Shown piece by piece: positions 4,192 through 26,658 of a DNA stretch of 64,000 bases. A program made the position numbers and the translations under genes. A model generated the notes under the pieces. The model did no database searches, had not been told where the DNA came from, and saw nothing but the letters and a program-made list of their open reading frames with translations. The stretch is from Gammaproteobacteria bacterium (lineage in GTDB: Bacteria; Pseudomonadota; Gammaproteobacteria; Xanthomonadales; Wenzhouxiangellaceae), in contig JAJFKX010000012.1 of the NCBI GenBank assembly GCA_021772985.1, forward strand, positions 1-64,000. The letters are read 5' to 3'. Position 1 is the stretch's first letter. Each line of letters begins with the position of its first letter.

Positions 4192-5370
4192 ATGAAAAGT
4201 GGTTTGTTCAGCATAATTATCCTGATGATGTCGGTTGCGGTAACTGCAATGGAAACTGACAATGGCACACCGCCTGAACCAATACAGAATATGCACCAGG
4301 GTCAGGGTAGCTATGCTCTACTGTTCATGGGCAATAGCCACAGCTCGTTAAACGACCTGCCGGATCTGGTTAAAACACTGATCGAGACAGGTCTTCCCAA
4401 TAGTTCGGCATTCGCTACAACGGCACCCGGTTGGAGGTTTTTGGCTGATCGACTGGATGACGGCGTATCGCATGCAAGTCTGTTAAGCCGGGAATGGACA
4501 CATGTCATCTTGCAGGCCCAGAAGTATTCAACATCAGGTCTGTACGATTATCCGACCGATGCAGCTGAAGAATGGATTCGCCGTGCAAAAAGTCAAAACG
4601 CATTGGCTGTTATGTTCCCGGAATGGCCACGTCGGGGGAATTTCGAAGAAGGCCCCAGGGTGCATCGATTGCACCTGGATATCGCCTCGCGCGAGGCGGC
4701 CTGTGTTGCGCCGATCGGTTTGGCCTGGGAGGCGTCTTTGGCAAGGTATCCATCCCTGGGGTTACATGCATCAGATGGAAATCACTCCAATCTGACCGGC
4801 GCACTGCTAACCGCTTACGTATTGTATGAGGTTGTCACCGGGCAGTCTGCCGCTGATCTCCCCTATATACAGAGCATTCAAGTTGCTGCTGCAAATCAAC
4901 AAAGGCTGAGTGAAGTGGCCTCATTGGTGGTGCAGGCCAACCAGGCTGTCTGCTCTGCTTTTGATATCTCATTCGATGTTGCAAGTCTTGAGTTCAGAGC
5001 TTTGGAAGTCACGGATACGGTGTCTAAAACCGTCACGGTTACCAATGTCGGTATCGTTGATATGAGCATTGATTCGATCACCAGCACTGATGCATCATTC
5101 ACTGTAGCAGGTGGAACTTGCCCGACACCTCCTTTAACCTTGAGCCCATCCGCCAGTTGCACGGTAATGGTTGAATTTTCTCCACAAAAAGCCGGTTATT
5201 TTAACGGCAACCTTTACTTCGAATCCGATTCAACAGCATTTTCCGGGGTTTTAAGCGTGAGTGGATTCAGTGGCGCTGTAATTCCTACACTTAACCGTTG
5301 GGGAATACTTACGTTGGTGATGGTAATGGTGCTTATTAGCGGTTTGGCTCTGGCCAGGTTTAATAAATAA
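4192..5370 (+). CDS. Secreted SGNH-like hydrolase with IPTL-CTERM tail
   Basis: The 392-residue protein has a signal peptide (residues 1-19). An SGNH/GDSL-type domain resembling DUF4886 follows: GNSHS at 47-51 would hold the nucleophile Ser49, and DGNHSN at 195-200 supplies Asp195 and His198. Residues about 255-360 look like a choice-of-anchor D (ASPM/Hydin-type) beta-sandwich ending in SVSGFSG. The C-terminus (364-392) is an IPTL-CTERM signal: IPTLNRWG, a hydrophobic segment, then a weakly basic end (Arg, Lys). In other bacteria such tails are linked to exosortase-type sorting (XrtH); no such enzyme is in this window. The substrate is unknown. Confidence 0.8.
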   Translation: MKSGLFSIIILMMSVAVTAMETDNGTPPEPIQNMHQGQGSYALLFMGNSHSSLNDLPDLVKTLIETGLPNSSAFATTAPGWRFLADRLDDGVSHASLLSREWTHVILQAQKYSTSGLYDYPTDAAEEWIRRAKSQNALAVMFPEWPRRGNFEEGPRVHRLHLDIASREAACVAPIGLAWEASLARYPSLGLHASDGNHSNLTGALLTAYVLYEVVTGQSAADLPYIQSIQVAAANQQRLSEVASLVVQANQAVCSAFDISFDVASLEFRALEVTDTVSKTVTVTNVGIVDMSIDSITSTDASFTVAGGTCPTPPLTLSPSASCTVMVEFSPQKAGYFNGNLYFESDSTAFSGVLSVSGFSGAVIPTLNRWGILTLVMVMVLISGLALARFNK

Positions 5371-22765: not shown

Positions 22766-23086
22766 CTACTTATCTTCCAATAGCACTGCCGTTCCATAGG
22801 CCAGTAATTCCGCAGCACCCTGCATCACCGGTGCAGTTGTAAAGCGCAGGCATACAACAGCATCCGCACCGAGTTTTTCTGCTTCGGCGATCATCCTGTC
22901 AATGGATTGTTCACGTGCCTCGGCCAGCATCTTGGTGTATTCCGTGACTTCACCGCCGACCAGATTACGCAGGCCAGCCACGATATCATTACCGATGTGG
23001 CGTGCGCGTATGGTGTTACCTCGCACCAGGCCCAGCGTACGGGTAATGTTTTTGTCGGCAAATACATCCTGATTGGTTATCAGCAT
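22766..23086 (-). CDS. YbjQ/UPF0145 family protein
   Basis: This 106-residue protein shows the YbjQ pattern: VRGNTIRARHIGNDI, GGEVTEYTKMLAEAREQSIDRM, AEAEKLGADAVVCLRF and a C-terminal AYGTAVLL. Family members form small beta-alpha oligomers of unknown role and have been called heavy-metal-binding on weak grounds. It is convergent with aspS (19-base gap). A small membrane protein gene lies 40 bases upstream on the same strand, probably in the same transcript. Confidence 0.9.
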   Translation of the reverse strand: MLITNQDVFADKNITRTLGLVRGNTIRARHIGNDIVAGLRNLVGGEVTEYTKMLAEAREQSIDRMIAEAEKLGADAVVCLRFTTAPVMQGAAELLAYGTAVLLEDK

Positions 23087-23126
23087 AGTGATTCCTAATG
23101 GTTACTAACAAGGTGAGCAGGGGGTG

Positions 23127-23339
23127 CTATTTATCCACGTGTTTTGCATAATAATCATCTTCTTTATTACCGATACGTTCTTTCAATACTTTGATGATCA
23201 AAGCGCCAATACCAATCAAAGCAACCAGGCCGAGCAGTCCAAATGGAAAGGCTAGAATGACACCGGCCAATAACGCCAGCAGATACAGTACTGCAAGCAA
23301 ACCTAAGCAGGTAAAACCAACTTTTTCATATTTGTCCAT
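23127..23339 (-). CDS. Small two-segment membrane protein
   Basis: The 70-residue product starts MDKYEKVGF, has hydrophobic segments at about residues 9-30 and 33-50, and ends in a charged tail (KERIGNKEDDYYAKHVDK). It is not recognisable beyond a small integral membrane protein. It lies upstream of ybjQ on the same strand, so the two may work together. Confidence 0.65.
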   Translation of the reverse strand: MDKYEKVGFTCLGLLAVLYLLALLAGVILAFPFGLLGLVALIGIGALIIKVLKERIGNKEDDYYAKHVDK

Positions 23340-23443
23340 AGCTCACTGCTCCGGTTTTTACGTGAATGACAGGCTTTGCTGCTAATCAATAATAGCTTTC
23401 GGCTATCTGCCTGTCATGGGTCAAAGGTCAGGTTTGATTGGGC

Positions 23444-23797
23444 TCAATCAGAATGCAGTACGATTCTGTTGCCTTCGCTGTCAATCAATACCGACCGGTA
23501 ACCATGTGGTCCAATGGCATGCGGTGGTTGTTCCACCAGGCCACCATTTTCTTTGGCTACAGCAACTGCTTGCTCGAGTCGGCCGCTCACATTGAAATAC
23601 AACATTGCACCATCTCTGGCTGGTTTGTGGGTATCACTAACGAACAGGCAGCCAGCCACATCGTTGTCAGCGTGTGAAAACACTGCGACGCCTGGGTATT
23701 CCTCAATGATGACAGTTTGCAAAACCGCGCTGTAAAAAGCGATGGCGCGTTGTAAATCCAATGTCGGCAGATCGAACCAAACAATAGTGTTTGCCAT
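23444..23797 (-). CDS. VOC family (glyoxalase/bleomycin resistance-like) protein
   Basis: The 117-residue single-domain protein has the VOC pattern: IVWFDLPTLDLQRAIAFYSAVL at the start, a central LYFNVSGRLEQAVA strand-helix, and GPHGYRSVLIDSEGNRIVLHS at the end. VOC proteins bind metals and small molecules; close relatives are often annotated as glyoxalases without proof. It is separated from the upstream DoxX gene by a strong terminator and so forms its own unit. Confidence 0.87.
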   Translation of the reverse strand: MANTIVWFDLPTLDLQRAIAFYSAVLQTVIIEEYPGVAVFSHADNDVAGCLFVSDTHKPARDGAMLYFNVSGRLEQAVAVAKENGGLVEQPPHAIGPHGYRSVLIDSEGNRIVLHSD

Positions 23798-23837
23798 GAT
23801 GGTGTTCCGTGTTAGGTGATCTAATCTTATAACAAAA

Positions 23838-23862
23838 AAAGGCGCCGGGGTGCGGCGCCTTT
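23838..23862 (-). terminator. Rho-independent terminator of the hvf-like operon
   Basis: On the minus strand AAAGGCGCC pairs with GGCGCCTTT around a 7-base loop (23847-23853), followed by a run of seven T residues (23834-23840 on the plus strand reads AAAAAAA). It lies 21 bases after the DoxX stop and before the VOC gene, marking the end of the operon. Confidence 0.88.
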
Positions 23863-23883
23863 TGGATCAGTGCTGGGTAATTA

Positions 23884-24543
23884 TCAGCTGAACCGTGGTA
23901 TGGCAAAACACAAAGCAGCAATAGCCAGGTATATAAAGCCGGTAATCGGCATCAGGAAAATTAATGGGATAGCCAGTATCAGGAAAACAAACCCCGCGGC
24001 AATTACATCACCAATACGGCGGCTATCACCTGAGCGGGCGGTCAACAGCAACATAATCTGATCGACACTGAGTTTGCCACCGCCATTGAATACCAGCGGT
24101 AACAGCATCAGCAGAAACAACAGCGGGATACGGAAGTTACCAAAGAAGTGCCCATCCTCAACTACACGTGATACCGAATAGCCTTTCCACAATTCCAGCA
24201 AGCCCGACCAATCACTGGGCCAATGGATGGTTGCAATCGCAACCGCAGTGATGACAATCAGTGAAAATGCTGCAAAACGAGTGAATAAACCGACGATCAG
24301 CAGCACACTGAAAATTAATTCTCCCCAAGTGGCTGCAAACCAACTGAGATCTGCACCCAGTAGTTTGAATGGTTGTGGAAAATTATCAATCCGGTTGGTA
24401 AACCAGTTATTGCCGTTGAGTTTTGTCAGGCCTGCTTGAAAAAACTCATAACCAAGAATCAAACGCAGACCCAGTGGCCAGAGCCACTCCCCACCGGCAC
24501 GCAGACGCGCGGTCAAATCGTCATAAAAATCCGTAAAAACCAT
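23884..24543 (-). CDS. DoxX-family membrane protein, HvfD-like
   Basis: This 219-residue protein has DoxX features: WPLGLRLILGYEFFQAGLTKL at the N-terminus and four or more hydrophobic segments, extended at the C-terminus by an additional pair. DoxX proteins are the usual fourth gene (hvfD) of hvfABCD operons; their role is not defined, with maturation or transport both possible. ATG at 24543 is chosen over TTG at 24555. The gene starts 44 bases after the DUF2063 stop and ends before the terminator. Confidence 0.85.
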   Translation of the reverse strand: MVFTDFYDDLTARLRAGGEWLWPLGLRLILGYEFFQAGLTKLNGNNWFTNRIDNFPQPFKLLGADLSWFAATWGELIFSVLLIVGLFTRFAAFSLIVITAVAIATIHWPSDWSGLLELWKGYSVSRVVEDGHFFGNFRIPLLFLLMLLPLVFNGGGKLSVDQIMLLLTARSGDSRRIGDVIAAGFVFLILAIPLIFLMPITGFIYLAIAALCFAIPRFS

Positions 24544-24587
24544 GTCGTACTCCAAATGTAACTAAAAGCCTGAATCGAAAAGGTCGA

Positions 24588-25370
24588 TTACTGAACGTCC
24601 TGTGTTCCCAGGATTATACCTTTTCGGTGCAAAGACAACAGTTGTTGATGTCCAGCTTGAATAACTTGCTGATCACCGGCCCGGTTGATCTCAGCAGCAA
24701 ATTGTTCGAGTACAACATGACCTGCCTGGCGGTGATTGTCTTGCAGATTGTTTTGTAATAACTGGCATAGGCGGGCGGTGCCGGGAGTAAGCTCCATAAA
24801 GGAAACAACTTCTTTGCTATTACGGTAAACCATTAACCAGGTTGGTGATTCGGGTTGTTCCGTAGGAATGAAATCCGGTCGAATTCTATGTACCGGCCAG
24901 TTGTAACCCAATAGCCAGGCGACCGGAGACAGTGCCGGAACCTGCTTTAATATATCGGTATCCTGATTAACCTGGATATCCTCTGCGGTGGCTTGTTCAT
25001 CACGTAATGCCAGCCCTGCCCATTCGTAATGGGCCAGCTCCAGCATAAATGGGAAATTCTTGTCGGTATCGTGGTTTGCCTGCAGATAGTGAAGGAACTC
25101 CCGGCTCAATTCAGGAAACAACGGCGTTCGTGCACGGTGATTGATCAAAAAGTGACGAATGACATTGCTCCAAGCCTGTTCACCCATAATCGCTTTAATG
25201 ACTTTAAACCGTTTACCCAGCAGATTCCTGAGGTTAGCGAATATCAGCCTGCGGTAAATTGCCATCCTGCGATCTTCCAGGTTGGCTGGCGCAGGGTTGT
25301 TAGCAGGATTGCGGAGATGCGCGGTGAATTGGCGCTGTACATCCCGAAAGTCGTTACTGACGGTTGCCAT
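24588..25370 (-). CDS. DUF2063 partner of the DUF692 enzyme (HvfC/BufC-like)
   Basis: The 260-residue protein has an N-terminal DUF2063 domain (about 8-100: QRQFTAHLRNP, RRMAIYRRLIFANLRNLLG) and a C-terminal domain with WLMVYRNSKEVVSFMEL. In characterised RiPP systems such proteins form a complex with the DUF692 enzyme and help deliver the precursor, although Pfam calls the domain putative DNA-binding. It follows the DUF692 gene after 8 bases. It is likely part of the modification complex. Confidence 0.88.
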   Translation of the reverse strand: MATVSNDFRDVQRQFTAHLRNPANNPAPANLEDRRMAIYRRLIFANLRNLLGKRFKVIKAIMGEQAWSNVIRHFLINHRARTPLFPELSREFLHYLQANHDTDKNFPFMLELAHYEWAGLALRDEQATAEDIQVNQDTDILKQVPALSPVAWLLGYNWPVHRIRPDFIPTEQPESPTWLMVYRNSKEVVSFMELTPGTARLCQLLQNNLQDNHRQAGHVVLEQFAAEINRAGDQQVIQAGHQQLLSLHRKGIILGTQDVQ

Positions 25371-25378
25371 TGGAATTA

Positions 25379-26278
25379 TCAGCCGTATTGTCTGGTTTGC
25401 TGGAGTTGTTGAGCAGCTACAGGTTGGGACTGGTATTTTTCCTGCAGGTCGGCAATATGTTGAACTTCACCCAGTAATTCGTTCAGTGGCGGGAGATTGA
25501 AGTCACGTTCCAGCAAAGTAGGAAATACACCGAACGTTTGATAAGCCACTTCGAGCAAATCCCAGACATCAGGGATGACATCAGCACCATGGGTATCGAT
25601 GATCAAATCTGCTGCTTCGTGATAGTGGCCTGCAATGTGGGCATAAGCAATGCGCTCACCGGGCAATGCCTTAAGGAATTCGACCGCATCATAGCGGTGA
25701 TTGACGCTATTGACATATATGTTGTTGATATCAATCAACAGATTACAGTCAGCTTTTTCGATTACGCCAGTTACAAAATCAATTTCACTGATTTGCTGCC
25801 CGGGCGCTGCGTAGTAGGAAACATTCTCAATGGCTATCCGCCGACCGAGAATATCCTGGACTCGAGAGACACGCTCAGCAACATAGTCTATGGCTTCTGG
25901 CGTGAATGGAATGGGCATCAAATCATATAAATGACCCTCATCACTGCAGTAGCTGAGGTGATCGCTATAGAAGCGAATATTGTGCTGATCTAAAAACTGT
26001 CCGACCTTACGAACAAAAGTTTCATCCAAAGGCTCAGGTCCACCGATCGATAATGATAAACCATGGGTTACAAACGGGTATCGTTCGGTATATTCGCGGA
26101 ATATGCGGCCCAAACGGCCACCTACATTAATCCAGTTTTCCGGCGCAACTTCCATAAAGGATATCGGCGCCATCGCTTCGAAGTTCTCTGGTTTGGCAAG
26201 CGGGCTCAAGAGAGCCCGCCTTAAACCAAGCCCTGCACCAGTCACAGGGAAGTGGCTGGTGTTGTTTTCAGAGCTCAT
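25379..26278 (-). CDS. DUF692 multinuclear iron oxygenase, HvfB/MbnB-like
   Basis: The 299-residue enzyme has the DUF692 (UPF0276) set of metal ligands in order: EVAPENW, THGLSLS, YSDHLSY, IENVSYY, LLIDINNIYVN, HIAGHYH, DTHGADV and LLERDFN. Homologues MbnB and HvfB use two or three irons and oxygen to turn cysteine into oxazolone/thioamide groups. The adjacent Cys-rich precursor and DUF2063 gene strongly suggest the same chemistry. It starts 29 bases after the precursor gene. All expected ligand blocks are present, so it should be active. Confidence 0.92.
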   Translation of the reverse strand: MSSENNTSHFPVTGAGLGLRRALLSPLAKPENFEAMAPISFMEVAPENWINVGGRLGRIFREYTERYPFVTHGLSLSIGGPEPLDETFVRKVGQFLDQHNIRFYSDHLSYCSDEGHLYDLMPIPFTPEAIDYVAERVSRVQDILGRRIAIENVSYYAAPGQQISEIDFVTGVIEKADCNLLIDINNIYVNSVNHRYDAVEFLKALPGERIAYAHIAGHYHEAADLIIDTHGADVIPDVWDLLEVAYQTFGVFPTLLERDFNLPPLNELLGEVQHIADLQEKYQSQPVAAQQLQQTRQYG

Positions 26279-26307
26279 AGCTATGGACTTAGCTAGTCAG
26301 GTGTGGG

Positions 26308-26658
26308 TTATACGGTACCGCCGCAAGAACCTTCACCACAAGAGCCTTCGCCTTCGCCATCATCGTCTTCACCACAAGAGCCTTCGCCGCAAGAGCCTTC
26401 TTCATCGCCTTCGCCACAAGAACCTTCTTCGTCGCCTTCGCCACAAGAACCTTCTTCGCCGTCATCGCCACCACAAGAGCCTTCACCACAAGAACCTTCT
26501 TCGCCCTTATCGTGATCGCCACCAGCAACCATGTAACCTTCATCAAGGTCGATAGCGCCAAACAATGCATCCTGGTCAGCAGCAATAGCAGTAGAACCAA
26601 TGAAAGCTGTGCCGATAGCAGCAGCGATAGGTGCAACAATTAACTTACGAGTATTCAT
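26308..26658 (-). CDS. HvfA-like Cys-rich RiPP precursor with eight EGSCG motifs
   Basis: The 116-residue product has a signal peptide (1-26, AIA before the cut), a linker containing FGAIDLDEGYMVAGG, and a core of eight EGSCG pentapeptides from about residue 53 onward. All eight cysteines lie in these motifs, and the spacers are rich in Asp, Glu and Gly. Characterised HvfA peptides carry EGKCG motifs made into copper-binding oxazolone/thioamide groups; here Ser replaces Lys in every copy. A strong ribosome binding site (GGAGGA on the minus strand, 26667-26672) precedes the ATG, suggesting high expression. The product is probably a periplasmic metal-binding peptide. Confidence 0.88.
   Translation of the reverse strand: MNTRKLIVAPIAAAIGTAFIGSTAIAADQDALFGAIDLDEGYMVAGGDHDKGEEGSCGEGSCGGDDGEEGSCGEGDEEGSCGEGDEEGSCGEGSCGEDDDGEGEGSCGEGSCGGTV

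Follow-up and report, generated by a model that had tools for sequence, protein, structure and literature searches.

The 64,000-nucleotide stretch analyzed here (the window; contig JAJFKX010000012.1 of assembly GCA_021772985.1, from a gammaproteobacterium of the family Wenzhouxiangellaceae) carries a four-gene minus-strand operon, hvfABCX, that is very probably an HvfA/oxazolin-type operon of the captophorin class of ribosomally synthesized and post-translationally modified peptides (RiPPs), making a putative copper-binding peptide. The genes are hvfA (26308..26658), encoding a 116-amino acid precursor; hvfB (25379..26278), encoding a 299-amino acid MNIO (formerly DUF692) maturase; hvfC (24588..25370), encoding a 260-amino acid DUF2063 (PME1) partner of the type containing a RiPP recognition element; and hvfX (23884..24543), encoding a 219-amino acid DoxX-family membrane protein. 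All four proteins score above the curated NCBIfam cut-offs of their own Hvf families: HvfA with 33.9 bits against NF050137 (cut-off 19.5), HvfB with 434 bits against NF003818 (cut-off 360), HvfC with 273.3 bits against NF050145 (cut-off 142), and HvfX with 118.8 bits against NF050144 (cut-off 80). Pfam agrees, with matches of HvfB to PF05114 (E = 6.6e-101), HvfC to PF09836 and PF22106, and HvfX to PF07681 (E = 1e-20). The closest solved relatives are 3BWW for HvfB (E = 7e-71) and 3DEE for HvfC (E = 8e-8); both structures are named as belonging to the MNIO-PME1 set (PMC12668002).

A preliminary description of this DNA had proposed four consecutive genes of this type closed by a strong terminator. 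Their place and strand were as it gave them, with intergenic gaps of only 29 bp (hvfA-hvfB), 8 bp (hvfB-hvfC), and 44 bp (hvfC-hvfX), and its operon type and gene assignments were right, with the curated models now behind them. For hvfX, the ATG at 24543 behind a GGAG was taken as the start, and the listed TTG at 24555 was rejected. The intrinsic terminator (23837..23863, minus strand) consists of an 11-pair stem, seven of whose pairs are G-C, with a T run behind it, and sits just beyond the 23884-26658 range first assigned to the operon; a hairpin of the same kind with a T run also follows hvfX in a same-genus relative (L004). The name HvfABCD needs amending: the four gene types are present, but the fourth gene of the Haemophilus operon is hvfX (PMC13419390), not hvfD. 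The operon is a well-supported, ordinary representative of a RiPP class that is known and widespread.

The precursor had been described as cysteine rich, and it does contain eight cysteines; what went unmentioned is that every one lies inside an EGSCG motif and none in EGKCG, Ser having replaced Lys each time. In 20,000 shuffles of the HvfA residues, EGSCG occurred on average 0.007 times and at most twice. The motifs are carried by a strongly acidic core, the last Lys of the precursor being residue 51, and the N terminus resembles a Sec-type signal peptide (MNTRKLIVAPIAAAIGTAFIGSTAIA/A) by inspection, with a basic n-region, a hydrophobic stretch, and AIA. Between the two, residues 33-43 form an F..xDLD.GYM segment that precedes the first motif and is conserved across the aligned precursors, in which the leader and Cys columns are invariant; this segment is a candidate recognition element. 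Comparison with the same-genus relative indicates that hvfA is a real, selected gene, because differences fall at codon positions 1, 2, and 3 in the pattern 5, 6, and 45 and the nonsynonymous and synonymous rates are dN 0.052 and dS 1.04. It is under strong purifying selection, with all eight cysteines retained and the spacers differing by insertion and deletion. HvfA matched only the HvfA model and gave no DUF2282 match in Pfam. A 150-amino acid antisense open reading frame (26103-26555, plus strand) overlaps the hvfA repeats, but the codon-position pattern shows that hvfA holds the coding frame there, and the antisense frame is a by-product of those repeats. A folded precursor was also considered and set aside, the AlphaFold2 model being uninformative (mean pLDDT 44.5, pTM 0.11).

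The metal-ligand blocks that had been ascribed to the DUF692 enzyme are intact, as are its iron-ligand and catalytic positions. Residues were mapped through 3BWW, whose numbering is one lower than that of HvfB. Loss of N175, D242, or H244 kills the Haemophilus enzyme (PMC13419390), and these residues correspond to N185, D228, and H230 here. All three are invariant across 65 homologues, and so are H72, H107, D119, E151, N152, D183, H214, H218, R258, D259, and F260. Of these homologues, 63 cover R20 and R21, and neither residue varies among them. By inspection of motifs, with the FonB sequence unaligned, R20/R21 resemble the FonB specificity pair Arg15/Arg16, and D259/F260, within an ERDF motif, resemble Asp249/Phe250, of which Asp249 is the catalytic base (PMC12668002).

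The chemistry attached to the operon in the preliminary description needs correcting because the product group is now 5-thiooxazole. Oxazolone/thioamide pairs had been given as established for HvfA; an independent group has since reassigned the modification to 5-thiooxazole (PMC12668002), and the original authors agree (PMC13419390). The class now goes by the name captophorins, and the characterized EGKCG relatives all bear 5-thiooxazole and bind copper (PMC12668002, PMC12538549). In Haemophilus, the signal peptide also serves as the leader and HvfC is indispensable; each Cys is oxidized at a mixed-valent di-iron site, and export and cleavage follow (PMC13419390); the HvfA product there carries 5-thiooxazoles (PMC12668002, PMC13419390). 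From these relatives we infer a similar course of modification, export, and copper binding, and a similar physiological role, for the peptide of the window. In the cytoplasm, HvfC would bind HvfA through its signal-peptide/leader part and offer the core to HvfB, which, with its mixed-valent di-iron site and O2, would oxidize the eight Ser-Cys pairs to 5-thiooxazole with the loss of four hydrogens per Cys. The modified peptide would then be exported by Sec and cleaved, and its thiolate heterocycles could bind Cu(I) in the periplasm and so buffer copper, perhaps with HvfX assisting in the membrane.

The replacement of the usual Lys by Ser before every Cys is a modest twist, a lineage-specific variation of the motif. 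Precursors were gathered via HvfC so as not to favor Lys. In the window's family, 26 precursors contained 199 Cys-Gly sites, preceded by Ser in 45%, Ala in 33% (Ser or Ala, 78%), and Lys in 8%, and 18 of the 26 had no Lys-Cys at all. Lys-Cys was present in all 30 precursors sampled elsewhere in the order; Lys is usually the commonest residue before Cys-Gly there, with a share per family of 39% to 100% (family versus rest of order, rank test p = 4e-10, uncorrected for relatedness). Core net charge ranged from -14 to -31 in the window's family and from -19 to +14 in the other sampled precursors. The idea that Lys was completely lost only once was rejected: at least five changes are required on the HvfB tree, which places the window's genus apart from most of its family. 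An HvfB change accompanying the switch from Lys to Ser was likewise rejected; at the strongest family-specific positions (80, 113, 114, 132, and 153), the window's HvfB has G, D, E, Y, and V, residues common outside the family, and it shows no fixed substitution tracking Lys loss. Most likely the position before Cys is tolerant and the enzyme accepts both Lys and Ser, because several families have precursors that combine EGKCG with EGSCG next to just one HvfB, and such mixed precursors are common and occur in many lineages. This is the simplest reading and is consistent with FonBC taking Ala, Arg, and Thr in place of Lys (PMC12668002), and the substitution would leave the chemistry unchanged. 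That Lys-free, polyanionic Ser-Cys/Ala-Cys captophorins form a functionally distinct branch, in which the changed residue and charge affect which metal is chosen, the copper stoichiometry, or the location instead of reflecting neutral drift at a tolerant position, seems unlikely. Natural Ser- and Ala-type precursors nevertheless offer ready substrates for probing the part of the pre-Cys residue in enzyme recognition and copper binding.

Other readings of the operon were weighed against a thiooxazole peptide that buffers copper. A methanobactin-like system, with oxazolone/thioamide pairs and a peptide secreted for copper acquisition, might be suggested by the shared Pfam family of HvfB and MbnB and by the first report of HvfA, which, to judge from its title as cited in PMC13419390, described oxazolone/thioamide. 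It is hardly credible here: HvfB scores 44.3 bits against the MbnB equivalog TIGR04159 (cut-off 325), whereas it passes the HvfB model, the partner is of the DUF2063 type, for which every characterized enzyme makes 5-thiooxazole (PMC12668002), and the Haemophilus assignment has since been revised. It is also very unlikely that efficient modification of the Ser-type precursor has been lost and that the acidic, Cys-rich peptide works unmodified. Sensitivity of FonBC to some changes at the pre-Cys site would fit that idea, but hvfB and hvfC remain intact beside hvfA in most family members examined, the catalytic positions of HvfB are all conserved, and mixed Lys/Ser precursors are common.

A thiooxazole peptide that serves in redox stress, in the handling of a different metal, or in the envelope is a less probable but serious alternative to copper buffering. 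MNIO-DUF2063 clusters have also been tied to oxidative stress, HvfX is uncharacterized, and most relatives have a far less acidic core than this one. Copper is bound by oxazolin, gonophorin, and bulbicupramide (PMC13419390, PMC12668002, PMC12538549), yet the equivalent Microbulbifer operon is not induced under copper stress and gives E. coli slight protection at best (PMC12538549), so a copper role for the operon of the window is likely rather than established. Those two Microbulbifer results fit that alternative and count against a modified, copper-buffering peptide here, and several further points tell in the same direction. There is no copper regulator among the operon genes; FonBC rejects Glu and Phe at the Lys site (PMC12668002); and our literature search on EGSCG, EGACG, and EGNCG found no relevant paper except for an engineered Ala variant, and no assay of EGSCG as a substrate. 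The signal peptide was recognized by inspection, and the low-confidence HvfA model says nothing about metal binding. We still favor the copper-binding captophorin.

Directly upstream of the operon lie endonuclease III (nth) and rnf genes. The nth-hvfA neighborhood recurs in 11 of the 17 family loci examined and is therefore an old location in the family, where HvfC was above its cut-off in 31 of the 43 genomes searched. Upstream of hvfA, comparison by eye across the family gave no convincing conserved promoter or operator, and sigma-70 hits equaled the shuffled expectation. DUF2063 partners are reported to be almost always adjacent to the MNIO. Split operons occur in the window's family. In one genome (G022; L156, L097), hvfC stands beside nth with hvfA-hvfB-doxX approximately 650 kb away; in another (G012; L160, L103), hvfC is far from hvfA-hvfB; and in two more (G021, L152; G253, L154), hvfC lies beside nth without hvfAB. 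One relative (G028), from the same order, shares its exact precursor sequence with the Lysobacterales metagenome-assembled genome MO_188.B40, which points to the order Lysobacterales/Xanthomonadales.

The host genome contains two further MNIO-DUF2063 loci with different precursors. One (L001:972-3172; G000:C60 ~234116-234895) encodes a 152-amino acid duplicated BufA2-type precursor (128.9 bits, cut-off 60) with a lipoprotein-like start. The other (L002:563-2970; G000:C12 ~466050-466832) encodes a 215-amino acid putative precursor, possibly of a less described type, that has 11 cysteines, lacks an obvious signal peptide, and matches BufA2 only weakly (19.7 bits, cut-off 60); the protein next to it has a short match to Pfam Ferritin-like. 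Within the window, the region downstream of the terminator (22766-23797, minus strand) encodes a glyoxalase-like protein, a 70-amino acid small protein, and a YbjQ family "putative heavy-metal-binding" protein, with no evidence of operon membership. Farther away, a secreted protein (4192-5370, plus strand) ends in IPTLNRWGILTLVMVMVLISGLALARFNK, which we take to resemble an IPTL-CTERM sorting signal.

Among the closest known systems, the bufferins BufA1 (DUF2282) and BufA2 combine signal-peptide precursors, MNIO and DUF2063 proteins, 5-thiooxazole, and copper, as the operon of the window probably does, but HvfB scores below the BufB cut-off (NF050167, 253.9 bits; cut-off 310) and HvfA lacks the DUF2282 match. 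The Fontimonas thermophila fon cluster (fontiphorin, captophorin class; PMC12668002) has a 5-thiooxazole-forming MNIO-PME1 pair whose R-R and ERDF specificity motifs are seen here by inspection; its pentamers are Lys-Cys, and EGSCG is not among the substrates described. The Microbulbifer mmr operon (bulbicupramide; PMC12538549), like that of the window from marine gammaproteobacteria, combines an MNIO, a DUF2063 protein, and an EGxCG-repeat precursor for which Cu(I) binding was shown, with EGKCG repeats in contrast to EGSCG here. The hvfABCX operon of nontypeable Haemophilus influenzae (oxazolin; PMC13419390) has the same four gene types (precursor, MNIO, DUF2063, and DoxX, HvfX being usual but not universal in such operons), a precursor signal peptide (putative in the window), paired pentamer motifs, the same NCBIfam equivalogs, and the essential HvfB residues that are kept here. 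Haemophilus HvfA has six EGKCG motifs, whereas the HvfA of the window has eight EGSCG motifs and acidic spacers and, with no Lys before any Cys, falls outside the literal Lys-Cys (EGKCG) subgroup. The operon, with its chemistry corrected, adds a well-supported member to a large and recently described class of copper-linked peptides.
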